From the NCBI GenBank assembly GCA_903896015.1, contig CAITWF010000082.1:1-64000 (forward strand): DNA of 64,000 nucleotides, read 5' to 3'. Below the pieces are notes generated by a model. That model was not told the DNA's origin. It worked only from the letters and a program-made list of their open reading frames with translations, and did no database searches. Position numbers and translations under genes: made by a program. Each line of letters starts with the position of its first letter. The first letter of the stretch is position 1. This DNA is from an uncultured Opitutia bacterium. Lineage in GTDB: Bacteria; Verrucomicrobiota; Verrucomicrobiia; Opitutales; Opitutaceae. Shown one piece after another: positions 5,144-49,294 of the stretch.

Positions 5144-6541
5144 TCAATGCGCGCCGCTGCGCCCAGGCATGGGCAGTGGGCCGTCGCGCGAGGGCATCGG
5201 CGCAAAGTCGGGACGCGGCACACCGGAAACCAAATCGGCCACGCGCACGGCAGCACCGGTTTCGAGGCCGCGGTTCGCGGCAATGCCAACGAGAATCGAG
5301 CACGCTCCCGCGCGTTCGTCGGCGGCGCGGAGGTATTTGTCGGCGGGTGGAGACGGCAGAAAAATATCCTCCAGCATCAACCGATCGCCGCCGCCGTGGT
5401 CGCCCTCGGCCGTCCACGGCGTGAGCTCACGCGCCTCGCCCCGCAGCGGAATCACGCGCGTCGTCACCCCGCCGTCGGCGATGCCGCCCTGCACGGTCTC
5501 GGTGCCGTTGACGTAAACCGACTCCACGATCTTGTGCTCAAGCCGGCCTTTGGTGCCGTTGAACGCCACCGTGTAACCCTCCCATGCGTTGAACGCATTC
5601 AGCGAATAACTCAGGGTTGCGCCGGTGTCGTAGCCGACGATGACGTTCATCGTGTCCTCGATATCGATGTCCGCGCGAAAAACGCAACGGTCCCGAAAAT
5701 ATCCGTCGTAACTCTCGCAATCGGCGTAGAGCGATTTCAGGTGCGCGTTCGCCGAAAGATCGAGGGCGAAGCCACACTTTTGTTTCTCGGGGCACGTCGT
5801 GCAACGCTCATGCGGGCCGGAAAGCCCGAGCCGCCGCGCTATTGCGGGCGTATAGAACTGGCGGCGGCCGTTCGCCAGCACCGAAACGGGCACGGCACCA
5901 AGCCACCAGTTCACAAGATCGAAATGATGGGTGGACTTGTGGACGAGCAGGCCGCCGGAATTTTTTTTGCGGCTGTGCCAGCGACGGAAATAGTCGGCGC
6001 CGTGGTGCGTGTTGAGCAGCCAGTGAAAATCCACCGACAGCACCTCGCCGATTTCACCGCTCATCAGGATGTCCTTCACCTGCGAACGCGGCGGCGAATA
6101 ACGGTAGTTGAAGGTCACGCGACAGTGCCGGCCGGTGCGCCGGCACGCGTCGAGAATCTGCTGACACTTCTCTGCGTCGGTCGTCATCGGCTTTTCCGTG
6201 ATGACGTCGCAGCCCGCCTCCATCGCGCGGACCAGATACTCATGGTGCGCCGCGTCCGCCGTCACAACGATGACGACCTCGGGCTTCGTCTCCGCGATCA
6301 TCCGCGAGAAATCCGCCGCGAGATAACCGGGCGGCACGGGCGCGTCGTTTTGCGCCGAGCGTTTGCGCGCGACTTCGATCCGGCCCGCGTTCGAATCGCA
6401 CACGCCGACCAGCTGCGCATGCGCCGCGTGCGTTTTCTCAATGCCATCTTGATAGAGTTCGTGTCGCGAGCCCAGCCCGACGATCGCGTAGCGGCGGCGC
6501 GACGCGACTGGCGCGGAGGAAGAGGACAGGGAGACGGACAT
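5144..6541 (-). CDS. Gfo/Idh/MocA-family oxidoreductase
   Basis: 465 residues from the ATG before MSVSLSSSSAPVASRRRYAIVG. A Rossmann start (YAIVGLGSRHELY) is followed by VVIVVTADAAHHEYLVRAMEAG and the family motif ITEKPMTTD, whose Lys is the usual catalytic or substrate-contacting residue. The C-terminal alpha/beta domain is long and carries a four-cysteine insertion (CTTCPEKQKCGFALDLSAN) that could bind a metal. The family catalyses NAD(P)-dependent oxidation or reduction of sugars and cyclitols. The adjacent UxuA-like gene hints at a uronate-type substrate, but this is inference. Confidence 0.8.
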   Translation of the reverse strand: MSVSLSSSSAPVASRRRYAIVGLGSRHELYQDGIEKTHAAHAQLVGVCDSNAGRIEVARKRSAQNDAPVPPGYLAADFSRMIAETKPEVVIVVTADAAHHEYLVRAMEAGCDVITEKPMTTDAEKCQQILDACRRTGRHCRVTFNYRYSPPRSQVKDILMSGEIGEVLSVDFHWLLNTHHGADYFRRWHSRKKNSGGLLVHKSTHHFDLVNWWLGAVPVSVLANGRRQFYTPAIARRLGLSGPHERCTTCPEKQKCGFALDLSANAHLKSLYADCESYDGYFRDRCVFRADIDIEDTMNVIVGYDTGATLSYSLNAFNAWEGYTVAFNGTKGRLEHKIVESVYVNGTETVQGGIADGGVTTRVIPLRGEARELTPWTAEGDHGGGDRLMLEDIFLPSPPADKYLRAADERAGACSILVGIAANRGLETGAAVRVADLVSGVPRPDFAPMPSRDGPLPMPGRSGAH

Positions 6542-17061: not shown

Positions 17062-17272
17062 ACGGCGATCTCGCGCGGGAGCGGCGCGAATGGCGACGCG
17101 AAAGCGAGGCGGTGAATAACTTTCTCCCGGCGCGCTTGGCGTCCGGACGTTTTTTGTGCAAAATCTGAGCCGCAACTCGCAACTCACGCGCAGGCAGACC
17201 CGCCGCCCTTCGTTACGATGGACCCCGAGCCGCCCTCACGTTCACCGGCCCAACCCCTCAAGTCCCTCGGCC

Positions 17273-42723: not shown

Positions 42724-45270
42724 CTACCGCCACTCGTGGCGCGGGTAGCGGCGGGAAAGTTCAGCCTTCACCTTCGGATATTGCTCGCGCCAAAAATTGG
42801 TCAGGTCGTCCGTGACCTGAATCGGGCGCTGGTTGGGCGCGAGGATTTCGAACTTCACGGGCACGCGTCCGTGCCCGATCGTAAATTTTCCCTCGATGCC
42901 GTAGAGTTCCTGGATGCGCGCGCTCAGCACGGGCGGACCTTCCTTGTTGTAAGTGAGGCGAGATTTCCGGCCGTTGCCCATCACAAGGCGCTCCGGGAGA
43001 TAGTCGTCGATCACGGCGAGTTGCTCGGCGGTGAGCCAGTCCTTCAGGGTTGGCATCACCGGCTTGTCCTTGATGTCCCGGTAGCTGAGTTCGCCGTAGC
43101 AAATCTGCTCCACCAGCGTCGCGCGATCGGCGTCAGTGATCAGGTTCACTTCGAGTTCGGGAAACCACTCGGCCATGCGATTCACGCGCGTGATCCATTG
43201 CTCGACGGACTCGTCCCACGCTTCGAGTTTCAGCCGGCCGGCGATCACTTCCTTGGTGAGCAACGCGGCCGCCGCGTCGAGCGGCGCTTCGTCGCTGCTG
43301 ACCTTGGCGTCGAGCACGAGATCGCGGAAGCGGCGCTCGCGACGCGACACGACGCGTTTGATCGATTCGTCGTAAGACACGCCCCTCGTCTCGCGATAAT
43401 CATCCGGGAAAATCTCCTTCAGCCAGGCCTCCTCGATCGCAGTCGCGATCGACAGGAGCGTGTTTACCTCGCCGTCGCCGCGGCCGATTTCGCTGATTTC
43501 GCCCGCGACGAACAACTTCGCCTGCTGGATGCCACTTTCGCGCGCGAGCAAGCCGCGGCGGTTGTGGACGAGTTCGCAGCGCAGCGTGCCGGCATCGAGG
43601 CGCCGCGCCAGTTGGTCGGAAAAGCCGGCGAGCACGCATTTGCGGACCTCGGCGCCGTCCGTGCGCTTCTCGCTTGCGTCGAGGCCCTCCTTGGATGCGA
43701 TTTCTAGGAACTGCTCGAAGAGCGGACCGACCCGCCGCGCGCCTTGCGCGTGGATGCCGAGCCGGCGGCAGGCATCGAGCGAGTAATTCGCCTTGTCGGC
43801 GTAGCGCCACGCGCGCATGAGCAGAAAAAAATCACTCTCATGCTCCTCGCCCAACGTGTCCTCGCGCATTCGCTCGACGTCCTTCGGCACACCGCGCAGG
43901 AGAAAATTTCGCCCTTGCGTGAGCGCCGCCATCAGCGCGACCGGACGCACGCAACCGCGATCGGCGGCGGCGAGGAACATCCGCGCGTAGCGCGGGTGCA
44001 CCGGAAAGCGCAGCATCTTCCGACCGACTTCGGTGATCGATTTTTTTTCGCCGCCGAGGGCGCCCAAGTCGACGAGTAGATTCTCCGCCCGGGCGAGGCC
44101 GACCGCGTCGGGCTTTTCGAGCCACGGGAAATTCTGCACGTCGTCGATGCCGCTGGCCTTCAGCGTCAGCACCACCTCCGAAAGATCGAGCCGCTTCACC
44201 TCAGGCAGTTCCTGCGGCGCACGCTGCTCGTGTTCGCGTTCGGTCCAGAGTCGCACACACACACCGGGCGCGGTGCGGCCCGCGCGACCGGCCCTCTGAT
44301 CGGCGCTGGCGGCGGAAATTTTTTCGACGAGCAGCGTGTTGATCCCGCGGTGCGGGTCGAAACGGGCAATGCGCGCGAGCCCGCAATCGATCACGGCGGT
44401 CACACCGTCGATGGTGAGCGAGGTCTCGGCGACGTTGGTGGAGACAATGATCTTGCGCGCGTCGTAACGCGCCACGGCGCGGTCCTGCTGCTCGGGCGGC
44501 AACTCGCCGTGGAGCGGAAAAGTCACAAAGTCGCGCAGTTCGCGCGATGCCTGAATCGCCTGAACGGTGCGGTTGATCTCGTAGGCGCCCGGCATGAACA
44601 CCAAAAAGTCCCCGCGCGTCGCGCCAGCGACGCGTTCACACTCGCGCGCAGTGACGTCCCAGACAGGCTCGGTCTCGAAGTCGACCCGCTTCGTGAGATA
44701 CTCCACGCTCACGGGAAAACTGCGACCTTGCGAGACGAGCACGTCGCACGGCGCGAGGTAGTTTTTCAGCAGACCGGCGTCGAGCGTCGCCGACATCACG
44801 ATGATTTTCAGATCGGGGCGAACCGTCCGCTGAATCTGCAACGCACGCGCCAGCGAGATGTCACCATAGAGATGACGCTCGTGAAACTCGTCGAAGACGA
44901 TCGCGCTGATTCCCTTCAGCGTGGCGTCGAACGACATCTGCCGGAGGAGAATGCCCTCGGTGACGAACCGGATGCGCGTGCGCTCGCTCACTCGCGACTC
45001 AAGGCGGATTTGGTAGCCAACCCCTTCGCCGAGCGAAGTGCCGGCTTCTTCGGCGACGCGCTTCGCAAGCATGCGCGCGGCAAGCCGGCGTGGTTGGAGC
45101 ACGACGACTTCGCCCTTTTCACCGAGCAAGCCGTGCCGCCACAGCATTTGCGGAATCTGCGTGGACTTGCCCGAGCCGGTCGGCGCCTGCACGATCAAAC
45201 GACCGGCGCCGCGCACGGCGGCGACGACGGCGGATTCGAGTTCGTAGATGGGCAAATCGCGCGGTGACAT
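42724..45270 (-). CDS. hrpB: ATP-dependent RNA helicase HrpB
   Basis: 848 residues. Walker A is in QAPTGSGKSTQIPQ, the DEAH-box motif appears as VFDEFHERHLYGD, and motif III is MSATLDAGLL. Motifs V-VI are STNVAETSLTIDGV and DQRAGRAGRTAPG. The helicase-associated and HrpB C-terminal regions follow (RRLGIHAQGARRVG, MAEWFPELEVNLITDADRAT). HrpB is a DExH helicase of uncertain cellular task, thought to act on RNA. It is monocistronic. The start faces a gene-poor region containing a large structured RNA. Confidence 0.92.
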   Translation of the reverse strand: MSPRDLPIYELESAVVAAVRGAGRLIVQAPTGSGKSTQIPQMLWRHGLLGEKGEVVVLQPRRLAARMLAKRVAEEAGTSLGEGVGYQIRLESRVSERTRIRFVTEGILLRQMSFDATLKGISAIVFDEFHERHLYGDISLARALQIQRTVRPDLKIIVMSATLDAGLLKNYLAPCDVLVSQGRSFPVSVEYLTKRVDFETEPVWDVTARECERVAGATRGDFLVFMPGAYEINRTVQAIQASRELRDFVTFPLHGELPPEQQDRAVARYDARKIIVSTNVAETSLTIDGVTAVIDCGLARIARFDPHRGINTLLVEKISAASADQRAGRAGRTAPGVCVRLWTEREHEQRAPQELPEVKRLDLSEVVLTLKASGIDDVQNFPWLEKPDAVGLARAENLLVDLGALGGEKKSITEVGRKMLRFPVHPRYARMFLAAADRGCVRPVALMAALTQGRNFLLRGVPKDVERMREDTLGEEHESDFFLLMRAWRYADKANYSLDACRRLGIHAQGARRVGPLFEQFLEIASKEGLDASEKRTDGAEVRKCVLAGFSDQLARRLDAGTLRCELVHNRRGLLARESGIQQAKLFVAGEISEIGRGDGEVNTLLSIATAIEEAWLKEIFPDDYRETRGVSYDESIKRVVSRRERRFRDLVLDAKVSSDEAPLDAAAALLTKEVIAGRLKLEAWDESVEQWITRVNRMAEWFPELEVNLITDADRATLVEQICYGELSYRDIKDKPVMPTLKDWLTAEQLAVIDDYLPERLVMGNGRKSRLTYNKEGPPVLSARIQELYGIEGKFTIGHGRVPVKFEILAPNQRPIQVTDDLTNFWREQYPKVKAELSRRYPRHEWR

Positions 45271-45301
45271 TTTTCAGGAGCGATCGAGCGTCTGTTCATT
45301 T

Positions 45302-45315
45302 CTTGCCGTGGCAAG
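45302..45315. other. Short perfect hairpin upstream of hrpB
   Basis: CTTGCC-GT-GGCAAG is a 6-bp perfect stem 31 bp ahead of the hrpB ATG on the minus strand, so it would lie in or near the hrpB leader. Confidence 0.4.
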
Positions 45316-45324
45316 CCCGTGAAT

Positions 45325-45363
45325 AACCGGTGAACGAGTTTGCTCCCAAGATATTCACCGGTT
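45325..45363. promoter_or_regulatory. 10-bp inverted repeat, possible operator
   Basis: AACCGGTGAA and TTCACCGGTT are perfect inverted repeats separated by 19 bp, so the centres are roughly three helical turns apart. The site lies between hrpB and the start of the putative large RNA, where a regulator could affect either. No known regulator motif is matched. Confidence 0.45.
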
Positions 45364-45449
45364 CGCATGGTGCAGCGATTGTGAAGAACAAAGACTTCAT
45401 TTTTCTCATCCTGCGCGCACCGTCTACAACGTTCCTTGATAGAACAGTC

Positions 45450-46306
45450 GCAGCGTGGCGGTCTGAAATAAATCGCCAAGAGCACGGCTGGGATAATCCC
45501 GGGCGACCGGGGAAAGGGCGACGGCAGCTGGTGCCGGCTCCCCCTCCAAACCGCGTTAGCGGACTTGGCAGGCATATCTCACCAGTTCCTCTGGCCGAAG
45601 TCGTGTTCGGTCAGGCAAGATCACGAAGAAGTGAACTGAGCGGTGAGCGGCGATTAGAAACCGCGCGCGAACCGAGTCAGGCCCACGGGGCGTTTCGACC
45701 CGTGCGCCGACGCAGTTACCCAGAGGGTTTCGGTTGCTACTGCGCAGACCAGAACGCAGTCGCGTTGTCCGGCGGGCCCACCCCGCCAAAAGGCCCAGCC
45801 CGGTTAAACGGGCGGGGCGCGAAAAGGCAGCGCGGCGGCGGGGAGCGAGCGAACCTGGCAAAGTTCGTCAAACCTCCTCCATGAGGCGGCGTGCAAAAAC
45901 ACGTCACCTCGCTGCAAGAGCGAAAGCAACCTGAGAGGTAAGAGGTCAGACCCGTAACGCGGGGCCAACGGCCGGCCAAAAGCTGGCGCCGTCCCCGTGG
46001 CAAAGGTGCTCGACGCGAAGATTGGTATTGCAGACGTGTCCGCACCACGTCCGGCGCGCCGCTCCCGGCAGGGAGTGTCCGAACCGGGCGCAGAGGCCTC
46101 ACTCGAAAGATTCGGACCGGAAACGGTCCGGACGGTCCCGCCATGAGACCGAGACATCCGCATGCCGCGGAGAGTGGCGTCGGGAAGCACACCGCCCGCG
46201 AAAGCGAGCGCGTCCAAGCGTGTGCCGCCGGGAAAGAGCGCGTGACGAACGCCCACCCCCACTTTTTGGCCCCGGGACCGCAAGGTCCCGGGGCCAAACT
46301 GTTTTT
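45450..46306 (+). ncRNA. Putative large structured non-coding RNA, unassigned class
   Basis: About 850 bases without a credible protein. Stems visible on the + strand include CCGC/GCGG with loop GTTA (45551-45562), CCGAA/TTCGG (45594-45609), CACGGG/CCCGTG (45684-45704), GGCGGG/CCCGCC (45771-45787), GCCCG/CGGGC (45797-45812), CGAAC/GTTCG (45850-45867), GACGTG/CACGTC (46033-46051), GGACCG-GAAA-CGGTCC (46114-46129) and CGC-GAAA-GCG (46198-46207). It ends in a 12-bp stem with a GCAA loop and T5. GNRA loops occur only in the + sense. GGTAAGAG at 45937-45944 equals the RNase P CR-II loop, but the RNase P CR-I and CR-V motifs are absent. The 5' end is a guess and no promoter is obvious. Confidence 0.6.
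46268..46306 (+). terminator. Very strong intrinsic terminator of the putative RNA
   Basis: A perfect 12-bp stem GGCCCCGGGACC/GGTCCCGGGGCC closed by the GNRA loop GCAA is followed six bases later by five T. No ORF ends just before it, which implies an RNA gene upstream. Confidence 0.85.
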
Positions 46307-46438
46307 ATACTTCACCGCTCGCCGGTCATCGCTGATCGAGCCCGGCGACGTGTAGGGGAAAACACGCGGCCTACTGGCGGAAACTACCCGCGGCAGCCGA
46401 TTGAATCTCAGCGAGATATTGACGATTAAGAGAGTCGG

Positions 46439-49294
46439 TTGAGCTCCGATCGAGTCCCTTCCCGATTTTTCACTCCTCTCACACTGACCATTCTGTGCGG
46501 TGCGATGGGCTTTGCCGTGAACCAATTCGGCGTAGCGGTTTTTGGCGGCACCGAACTCACGTTCGGCAGCATCCTGCCGATGATGGCCGCGATTCGCTTC
46601 GGGCCGGGCTATGGCGTAGTCGCCGCCGTCATCGCCTCCCTCAGCACGCTGTTCAACTGGGGCCATCCGCTGGGTGCGATCTGTTATCCCGCCGAGGCTG
46701 CGCTGGTGGGGTGGCTTGCTTCGCAGCGCCGCTGGCACCCGCTGCTCGCGGACATCCTGTTTTGGTCATTTCTCGGGTTTCCGATTGCGCTATTTTACAC
46801 TCAATTCGACGGGACGATTCCGTTTCCTGGTTACTGGGCGATTGCCGTAAAAATGCCGGTCAACGGCCTCGTTTCCACGCTCACCGCTTACACGGCGCTC
46901 GAAATACTGCTGGACGCTCTGGCCCATCGCTCCGGCTCGGTCGCAGCCAAGGCGCCCCTCCTCCAAATCCTCTTCCACCGCTTCGGCCTGCTCGCCACCC
47001 TGCCGATTGTCGCGCTCGGGTTTTACGCCGGACGAACCTTCGATCTTCGGCAGCGCGTCAACAGCGCCGTTGAAGTCGCCGACGCCGCTGACGATCTCGC
47101 TGGAGCGGTCGGCAAATATCTCGACACGCACCGGCAGGTCATCGCCACCCTCGCCCGGCAACTCGCCACCGATTCGCCGTCCGGCCACGACTTCCAGGCC
47201 AGTCAACTCGAAGCGGTTCGCCGTGAGTTTCCCGGATTTCTCACGCTGCTCCTTGCAGACGAACACGGACAGATCATCGCGACCGCCCCCAACCGCACCA
47301 CCGCCGCCCGCGGTGAATTCACCAGCGTCGCCGATCGCGAATACTTTCTCCAAGCGGTAAGCCGACGGCGGACGTTCGTCAGCGATGTCTTTCTCGGCCG
47401 CGGGCTCGGCCACGATCTGATCGTCGCCATCAGCGCGCCCGTGCTGGACGCACACGGTCAGGTGCGGTTTGTCGTCGAAGGTTCGCTCAATCTTGAGCAA
47501 CTCTCCCAGGATCTCACCCGCTCGTCCAAGACCACAGCACGCGATCTGGTGGTCGTCGATCGACGCGCGCAGATCGTCTGCAGCTCCGGCCGGCTCGCCC
47601 TCGCCCCCCTTGCTTCGTTCGCTGGCGAAAGCCTCTTTCAGGCGGCCGTTAATTCGCCTTCGCCCTCCTTTCTGCACGATCAGCGCCGCCCCGGCGAACG
47701 CCATGCAGAGCGCCAACTCGCTGCCACTGCCAAGGTCGCCGACTACGGCTGGAGGCTCTACCTGCAGGAGCCCATCTGGATCACGCAGCAGCCCGTCGCC
47801 GCCTATTATTTCTCGATCCTGTGCGGGTCGCTGTTCGCCATCGCGTGCGCCCTCGCCCTTGCGCGGGTGACGGCCGCTTCCGTCACGCGACCGCTGCGGC
47901 AACTCTTGCGCGCCACCCGTGCCCTCACTAGCGAGTCGCTCGCGCCACCTGTCCTAGAACTCACCTCGGCTCCCGCCGAACTCGCCGAACTCAGCCGCGA
48001 TGTCCACACCGCGACCCTGTTGCTACGCCAGAACCGGGATGAACTCGCCCGCCGCAACACCGAACTTCGCGATCTCCTCTCCAGCCTCGACCAGAAGATC
48101 CGCGACCGCACCGCCGAACTCGCCGAGGCGCGCACCCTCGCTGAATCCGCCAACCGCGCCAAAAGTGAATTTCTTGCCAGCATGAGCCACGAGCTGCGCA
48201 CCCCGCTCAACGTCATCCTCGGCAACGCCAACTTGCTCGAAGATGGGGCGCTCGGTTCCGTCACGGACCGCCAACTTGACTCCCTCCGCGGCATCGATGA
48301 AAGCGGCCGTCACCTCCTGGCCGTGATCAACGACATCCTCGACCTCTCCAAGGTCGAGGCCGGCATGCTCGAACTCGACTACAGCGACGTGAGCGTCGTC
48401 GAACTCTGCGATGCCAGCTTGCGCTTCGTCCAAGCCGCGGCCGAAAAGAAACACCTCACGGTCGATCGCAACTACGACTGCCTGCCCGACACGTGCTTCG
48501 TCGCCGACGGCCGGCGCGCCAAGCAAATCCTCGTCAACCTCCTCAGCAACGCCGTCAAGTTCACCCCCGAGGACGGCAGCATTTCCCTCGGCGTCAGCAC
48601 CGACCCGGCAAACAACGCCATCCACTTCATTGTGACCGACACCGGCATCGGCATCCCGCTCGAGCGCCAGCGGCGGCTCTTCCGCCCATTCGTGCAAATC
48701 GACAGCCGGCTCTCCCGCGACTACGCTGGCACCGGTCTGGGTCTCGCCCTCGTCAAACAGCTCGCCGATTTGCACGGTGGCAGCGTCAGCCTGCTCAGTT
48801 CGGCCGGTGAAGGCAGCACGTTCATGGTCTCGCTGCCGTTGCGGCGCCCGACCACCTCGCGCGCCCCGTTTCCATTTTCCGCCGGCGCCGCGCCGGCGGA
48901 AAAAATTCTTCACCAGCCCCGTCTCCTCGTCGCCGAAGACCACGCCACCAACGTCGCCGTCCTCAAGGCCTACTTCAACTCGCACGACTGCCACGTCATC
49001 TATGCCCACGATGGCCTCGACGCCATCGAGCACGCCTTCGCCGAGGTCCCCAACCTGATTCTCATGGACGTCCAGATGCCGCGCATGGACGGACTCGAAG
49101 CGATCAAGCGCCTCCGCGCCGATCCGCGCACCGCCCACGTCCCGATCATCTGCGTGACCGCCCTCGCCATGGCCGACGATCGCGAACGCTGCCTCAAGGC
49201 GGGCGCCAACGACTACCTCTGCAAACCGATCAATTTCCGCACGCTCACGCAGACCATCAACCGTTTCGCCACGCCATCGCTCGCCCGCCCGTGA
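46439..49294 (+). CDS. Membrane hybrid sensor histidine kinase
   Basis: 951 residues from a TTG with AAGAGAG just upstream; an ATG 22 codons in is an alternative. Residues about 10-190 hold five or six membrane helices (MASE-like integral sensor). A periplasmic Cache-like domain follows (FPGFLTLLLADEHGQIIATA ... GDVFLGRGLGHDLIVAISAP in sense), then a helix and HAMP (ASVTRPLRQLLRATRAL). HisKA has FLASMSHELRTPLN, HATPase NLLSNAVKFTPEDGS and DTGIGIPLERQ. The C-terminal receiver has the phospho-Asp in LILMDVQMPRMDG. It starts 132 bp after the structured RNA terminator. The signal is unknown. A second receiver/kinase gene follows ten bases later. Confidence 0.88.
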   Translation: MSSDRVPSRFFTPLTLTILCGAMGFAVNQFGVAVFGGTELTFGSILPMMAAIRFGPGYGVVAAVIASLSTLFNWGHPLGAICYPAEAALVGWLASQRRWHPLLADILFWSFLGFPIALFYTQFDGTIPFPGYWAIAVKMPVNGLVSTLTAYTALEILLDALAHRSGSVAAKAPLLQILFHRFGLLATLPIVALGFYAGRTFDLRQRVNSAVEVADAADDLAGAVGKYLDTHRQVIATLARQLATDSPSGHDFQASQLEAVRREFPGFLTLLLADEHGQIIATAPNRTTAARGEFTSVADREYFLQAVSRRRTFVSDVFLGRGLGHDLIVAISAPVLDAHGQVRFVVEGSLNLEQLSQDLTRSSKTTARDLVVVDRRAQIVCSSGRLALAPLASFAGESLFQAAVNSPSPSFLHDQRRPGERHAERQLAATAKVADYGWRLYLQEPIWITQQPVAAYYFSILCGSLFAIACALALARVTAASVTRPLRQLLRATRALTSESLAPPVLELTSAPAELAELSRDVHTATLLLRQNRDELARRNTELRDLLSSLDQKIRDRTAELAEARTLAESANRAKSEFLASMSHELRTPLNVILGNANLLEDGALGSVTDRQLDSLRGIDESGRHLLAVINDILDLSKVEAGMLELDYSDVSVVELCDASLRFVQAAAEKKHLTVDRNYDCLPDTCFVADGRRAKQILVNLLSNAVKFTPEDGSISLGVSTDPANNAIHFIVTDTGIGIPLERQRRLFRPFVQIDSRLSRDYAGTGLGLALVKQLADLHGGSVSLLSSAGEGSTFMVSLPLRRPTTSRAPFPFSAGAAPAEKILHQPRLLVAEDHATNVAVLKAYFNSHDCHVIYAHDGLDAIEHAFAEVPNLILMDVQMPRMDGLEAIKRLRADPRTAHVPIICVTALAMADDRERCLKAGANDYLCKPINFRTLTQTINRFATPSLARP

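Follow-up and report, generated by a model that had tools for sequence, protein, structure and literature searches.

A MISL RNA gene in an Opitutaceae genome with a longer predicted 5' end that carries a boxA-like motif, and with DnaA-box-like sites upstream

The feature at positions 45431 to 46306 of the 64-kb stretch of DNA analyzed here (the window) is a MISL RNA (Rfam RF03079), an ordinary member of a catalogued family. The RNA family itself was already known; what is new here is a longer RNA start and the architecture of the putative control region in front of it. We somewhat favor a model in which MISL is a free-standing RNA gene that would be controlled by DnaA and transcribed with rRNA-type antitermination, both control steps being predicted from sequence comparison. 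The features are collected in Table 1.

MISL was reportedly described by Weinberg et al. in 2017, when they surveyed intergenic regions. It shares with GOLLD, ROOL, and OLE that it is a large structured bacterial RNA, while no other Rfam family, these included, had a meaningful score in the region. The function of GOLLD and ROOL is described as unknown in the pertinent passage of one paper (PMC12286853). MISL RNA serves as a chemical-probing example in part of another (PMC10925082), and no function for it was found in the literature searched.

Table 1. Features of the MISL locus and its neighbors in the window
Feature	Position	Strand	Basis
DnaA-box-like site TTATTCACG	45318..45326	-	exact TTATTCAC core; position kept in homologs
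Degenerate DnaA-box-like site ATATTCACC	45351..45359	+	one mismatch to TTATNCAC; exact there in many homologs
Degenerate DnaA-box-like site TTCTTCACA	45380..45388	-	one mismatch
boxA-like motif GTTCCTTGATAGAAC	45431..45445	+	predicted 5' end; 53/54 loci
Likely full MISL RNA, 876 nt	45431..46306	+	predicted ends, boxA-like motif to terminator T-run
P0 region	45446..45489	+	stem 45446-45450 with 45485-45489; outside Rfam model
MISL core	45491..46253	+	RF03079 model 1-751, 492.3 bits, E 7.5e-150; covariation
Intrinsic terminator	46265..46306	+	15-bp stem 46265-46298, GCAA loop, then T-run
hrpB, divergent upstream neighbor, outside RNA gene	42724..45270	-	Pfam HrpB_C and helicase domains
Hybrid histidine kinase, downstream neighbor, outside RNA gene	46439..49294	+	Pfam HisKA, HATPase_c, Response_reg

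Family assignment, fold, and coding potential

We searched positions 45000 to 46700 with cmscan against 4,227 Rfam families. The single strong match was RF03079 on the + strand, which scored 492.3 bits against a gathering score of 274.6 and covered the covariance model completely rather than as a fragment. The three other rows returned for this segment were all far under their own gathering scores. A sequence-only reading of the region had held that no known class fits and that a strong Rfam hit would remove novelty; the search returned such a hit (E = 7.5e-150), which refutes the first statement and rules out a new RNA class. MISL was the sole gathering-level Rfam match within the window, and the 4.96-Mb genome of the window had one MISL match only.

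The same segment had no match up to E = 5 to an RNase P family, tmRNA, SRP RNA, or a group II intron. The word GGTAAGAG had been remarked on for its likeness to RNase P CR-II. It sits in the MISL core, within the most conserved stretch of the family (TAAGAGNNNAGACCCGT is present in 53 of 54 loci), and the likeness is best read as chance. Kinship with RNase P is ruled out by this position and by the absence of an RNase P family match.

The proposal that the + strand encodes a large non-coding RNA with extensive structure was borne out by the Rfam match, the fold, covariation, and stops in the open reading frames (ORFs), as were the two comparisons put forward with it, namely folding against dinucleotide shuffles and covariation among homologs. 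Positions 45431 to 46306 had a fold energy of -421.8 kcal/mol; 20 dinucleotide shuffles averaged -368.5, which puts the native sequence at z = -8.6. For covariation, the Rfam structure was laid over 45 loci of the same family (L001 to L045), so that the tested pairs were taken from Rfam and not derived from the compared sequences. Across the 172 pairs, 90.7% of cells were standard pairs; 100 pairs had compensatory change (729 cells) and 43 were invariant. Slid registers of the core were 37 to 42% paired, and 100 shuffles gave at most 231 compensatory cells. Since shuffles ignore relatedness, the slid registers are the fairer control. Membership in the MISL family holds for sequence and structure alike.

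Four ORFs of the region had no Pfam match at E 0.001. Six ORFs were compared with 53 other loci, and among the loci with a match, in-frame stops were found in 44/45 for the ORF of 184 amino acids (aa) on the + strand, 45/47 for 333 aa (-), 31/45 for 159 aa (-), 30/45 for 135 aa (+), and 23/44 for 101 aa (-). The shortest ORF tested (66 aa, +) had stops in just 6 of 34 loci. Across 54 loci, the longest core ORF was near the shuffled length (median of 126 versus 115 aa). The absence of Pfam matches and the stops in most homologs of the longer ORFs agree with the earlier view that there is no credible protein here.

RNA ends and the boxA-like motif

The conserved RNA begins about 60 nt before the start of the Rfam model and includes a covarying stem, which we call P0. 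A conserved block adjoins the model start on its upstream side and consists, in this order, of GTTCCTTGATAGAAC, stem P0, and GGATAATCC. For five P0 pairs in 89 distinct sequences, 388 of 445 cells were paired, with the third pair seen as TA, AT, GC, TG, CG, and GT. When seven pairs were counted, 71% of cells were paired versus 22 to 34% in slid registers, and 300 shuffles gave a mean of 53% and a maximum of 58%. Not included in the P0 count were L159, the four loci whose model start was unclear (L132, L150, L167, and L172), and named loci lacking a boxA match; removal of duplicates took the sequences from 115 to 90.

At the other end, 54/54 loci have a terminator-like hairpin just after the model, versus 23/154 control segments. 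A simple terminator scan of the window copy was not above chance (one found; mean of 1.8 in shuffles). The MISL RNA probably spans 876 nt. Of the boundaries first proposed, the end near 46306 stands, at the terminator, while conserved sequence places the start at about 45431 and not at 45450; the terminator is present with its T5, which runs to 46306, on a stem of 15 rather than 12 bp. The window copy agrees with RF03079 in its complete model match, covarying secondary structure, and occurrence in Verrucomicrobiota, and adds to it a P0 stem and a boxA-like motif outside the 751-position model and a DnaA-like region upstream.

The boxA-like motif was found no more than 130 nt upstream of the MISL model in 53/54 loci, with four matches in 191,843 nt elsewhere; because the pattern was made from these same loci, the positional contrast is what counts. 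It varies mostly as GTTC[CTA]TTGA[TA]AGAAC, with GATCTTTGACAGAA in its place in some of the distant copies; GTTCCTTGATAGAAC accounts for 62 of the 115 copies extracted. Several copies (GATC..GAAA, GTTC..GCAC, and GTTC..GAAT) cannot close a GUUC/GAAC hairpin and keep the boxA part. We therefore read it as a sequence motif, and the 5' hairpin was rejected as the conserved element. A -35 reading of the TTGATA/TTGACA within the motif was also rejected, as no -10 hexamer was seen by eye at the right distance.

A matrix built from the MISL motif gave rRNA boxA candidates in all five rRNA stretches examined. In one genome of the same family it picked TTTGTTCTTTGACAG, which precedes the 23S start by 92 nt (0/1000 plain shuffles), and in another CTAGTTCTTTGAAG, upstream of an incomplete rRNA operon (p = 0.004). 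In three genomes that are more distant, the picks from the 16S leaders were GATCTTTGATA, GATCTTTCACA, and GTTCTTTTAAA (p = 0.018, 0.028, and 0.05, respectively). Taken singly, at 0/1000 to p = 0.05 by plain shuffles, these tests point to a boxA in a modest way each; they are mutually consistent, and boxA is itself a short motif. Among 21 whole genomes, 16S was found in four by covariance model and in four by DNA, none of them from the window's family, in genomes whose rRNA regions are incomplete. In an Opitutaceae-type genome (L233), the 16S-23S spacer that leads up to the 23S gene at 5872 holds a boxA candidate, TTGTTCTTTGACAG. In three distant copies (L050, L051, and L053), a -10-like hexamer is separated from the boxA-like motif by roughly 20 additional nt that include a small hairpin (like AGTGTTCCTTCGGGAACTT), an arrangement that recalls the boxB preceding boxA in rRNA leaders.

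According to passages of PMC10250234, rRNA operons of E. coli have a boxA close to their start and a second one upstream of 23S, and boxA is both necessary and sufficient to recruit the factors. The consensus GYTCTTTAANA is presented as gamma-proteobacterial in sections of a survey that left non-coding RNAs unconsidered there (PMC5725501). MISL resembles the leaders of rRNA operons in that a boxA-like motif opens a long, untranslated, structured RNA, and differs from them in being a single RNA with its own terminator and a NusB site that is predicted.

DnaA-box-like sites upstream of MISL

In the window, one exact core and two cores with one mismatch lie about 45 to 115 nt before the RNA start. 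This makes the window copy a weak one, a point against DnaA control, although no other 160 bp of the window are as rich in such sites. Just one other exact TTATNCAC core occurs in the 64 kb, at 17111-17119 (-), and reads TTATTCACC. In the first set of loci, the 420 nt preceding the model (22.3 kb in all) contained 90 copies of TTATNCAC, versus two copies in 174 kb of other sequence from these loci, so that the sites are about 350-fold denser upstream. It was present upstream in 49/53 loci and absent at 4/53 (L010 was left out for its short flank), with the commonest positions near -172, -140, -121, and -109 relative to the model.

Among the matches listed for named loci, 71 could be counted after nine of 80 with cut upstream DNA were left out. 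TTATNCAC occurred 100 times in 40.8 kb upstream versus 24 times in 486 kb, and was present at 54/71 and absent at 17/71; these counts keep seven loci without a boxA match, some of which are possibly chance pattern matches. The first set and the named loci share species, and 52 of the named loci listed are non-overlapping.

We also looked for an inward-facing pair, GTGAATAAN{8,34}TTATTCAC, in whole genomes. It was found in 16/20, at one place each and always just upstream of MISL, and its reversed control in 0/20. As most of the 20 genomes were chosen for having both sites at MISL, it is the lack of other places that counts and not the 16. Of the four misses, G003, G047, and G064 carry MISL and G004 does not.

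The exact cores often have a partner. A second box-like 9-mer exactly 11 nt upstream of them had a mean of 4.85/8 matches versus 1.90 in background, and partners with six or more matches were present at 43% of anchors versus 0.8%. This pairing is weaker outside the first set: at the 52 further named loci listed, the mean was 3.39 versus 2.03, with six or more matches at 15% versus 1.1%, and at nine distant loci two of 11 anchors had the pair. At dnaA itself, it was clear in one of 14 loci.

A DnaA-regulated promoter would be expected to have a cluster of DnaA boxes (TTATNCACA), paired with a gap of 2 to 3 bp, and known boxes end in A. In the window's family, the ninth base of the MISL sites is mostly C (TTATTCACC in 49/80 sites); at distant loci, TTATTCACA makes up nine of 11 sites. 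TTATTCACA was also found on the opposite strand, 57 to 63 nt before the DnaA match, in nine of 14 dnaA loci (L062, L065, L066, L067, L069, L070, L071, L074, and L076), where it is likely an autoregulatory DnaA box of Verrucomicrobiota. The genome of the window has 36 exact TTATTCAC (reversed control, 23), two of them no more than 350 nt before its DnaA match.

Paired boxes 2 to 3 bp apart are preferred by E. coli DnaA, as stated in part of PMC11317965, and this spacing amounts to a pitch of 11 to 12 nt. The predicted MISL sites thus share tandem boxes with a 2-bp gap with the double-box promoters of E. coli DnaA described in portions of that paper, and differ in that their ninth base is often C in the window's family and their target is a non-coding RNA. 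A review on the transcription-factor role of DnaA (PMC8203912) does not use the terms sRNA, small RNA, non-coding (in either spelling), or rRNA. The best-ranked titles on boxA or DnaA boxes included none on a MISL controlled by either, in a search that covered little of the subscription literature and leaves novelty unproven.

Much of the remaining probability lies with a plainer account, a serious contender in which MISL has ordinary transcription, the 5' GUUC..GAAC is just a protective hairpin, and the TTATTCAC sites serve another regulator. The predominant motif copy, GTTCCTTGATAGAAC in 62/115, can form a 4-bp hairpin, and a ninth base that is mostly C in the window's family is unlike DnaA boxes. 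However, the copies that cannot close the hairpin keep the boxA part, the tandem 11-nt pitch fits DnaA, and TTATTCACA stands before the DnaA match at most of the dnaA loci.

Distribution, gene neighborhood, and proposed mechanism

MISL was matched in 103/200 sampled genomes of the window's family (81/147 of good quality), in 31 of 387 genomes sampled across the phylum, ten of these 31 outside the window's family, and in 0/14 control genomes; the filters were strict, so that weak matches may have been missed. Two matches each were found in eight of the 103 genomes (e.g., G047, G067, G092, G095, and G145), some being fragments or weak. As 66/147 good-quality relatives lack MISL, it is not essential to every member of the family. 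A conserved core word, used to scan contigs of named genomes, gave at least 119 stretches, and the 80 of these that were listed are all titled as Verrucomicrobia or as groups within Verrucomicrobia. The cultured Haloferula rosea KCTC 22201 (L150) is among those with the core word and is a candidate bearer of MISL. Ten of the listed stretches were put to cmscan, and nine were MISL at the gathering score. Two loci, L164 and L215, have the core word and are not MISL at the gathering score; they are diverged copies or chance. Phage carriage was rejected, as L215 was the single viral-contig pattern match.

The neighbors of MISL change with lineage. A divergent hrpB lies upstream in 33/54 loci by motif, or 42/54 by clustering, and a GTPase gene with the motif NIAIIAHVDHGKTTL, which we take to be typA/bipA-like, lies downstream in 26/54, where the window has the hybrid kinase. 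None of nine distant MISL loci is flanked by either gene, and as a clue to function these neighbors were set aside: they flank many same-family copies and 0/9 distant ones. Seven of the nine distant loci keep the upstream sites without hrpB. Conversely, in 16/16 MISL-free loci (17 taken, L246 left out as not assessable), the stretch that reaches about 1.58 kb upstream from the HrpB Walker motif contained no TTATNCAC, boxA-like word, or MISL core word. No MISL was found by cmscan in 16 of the 17 (L242 left out), and the typA-like gene is still present in five MISL-free hrpB loci. Since the sites are absent without MISL and kept at distant MISL loci, the candidate upstream sites, the boxA-like motif, the RNA, and the terminator co-occur, as this comparison shows, and MISL is a gene of its own.

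Chromosomal DnaA-titration or reactivation loci, such as datA and DARS, are present in E. coli. It is unlikely that the sites are a locus of this kind that adjoins MISL by chance and does not control it. The clusters do lie away from dnaA, and in eight complete genomes (G003, G013, G020, G049, G064, G070, G112, and G491) the distance between dnaA and MISL varies widely (e.g., about 156 kb in G049 and megabases in G003), which means that MISL need not lie close to dnaA. However, the sites are at fixed distances from the RNA start, stay with MISL when its neighbors change, and are missing where MISL is missing. Control of the divergent hrpB, rather than of MISL, by the sites and the motif is much less probable still; hrpB is the neighbor in many loci, but the 16 MISL-free relatives without sites and the distant loci with sites and no hrpB rule it out as their owner. 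That the region is protein-coding or a chance-structured GC-rich stretch has next to no probability, as the long chance ORFs (184 aa, +; 333 aa, -) carry stops in most homologs, ORF length is near that of shuffles, and four ORFs lack Pfam matches, which rules out a coding region, and the Rfam match and covariation speak for an RNA gene.

A consensus scan found no sigma-70-like promoter in the window; in distant copies, inspection by eye shows TTGAC-type -35 hexamers together with TA-rich -10 hexamers. Taken together, MISL looks like a self-contained unit of DnaA-like sites, promoter, boxA, P0, core, and terminator. Under the DnaA-controlled, antiterminated reading that we favor, DnaA would bind the partly tandem cluster, and MISL transcription would be set by the replication state. 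RNA polymerase would start at or just before the boxA-like motif, where NusB and S10 on boxA may render transcription processive and Rho resistant, as on rRNA. The long untranslated RNA would then be completed while folding from P0 onwards to the intrinsic terminator. As a guess, the finished RNA most likely acts as a stable component, structural or regulatory, of a ribonucleoprotein.

More tentatively, MISL may be a replication-coupled RNA in which a paired DnaA-box region, an rRNA-type boxA, and an antiterminated polymerase form one cassette that is gained and lost in Verrucomicrobiota. The likely true ends of MISL are what biochemists and structural biologists need to make the whole molecule. 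The boxA-like motif and the DnaA-box-like sites turn this large RNA into a subject for direct tests of DnaA control, NusB binding, and its level through the cell cycle.
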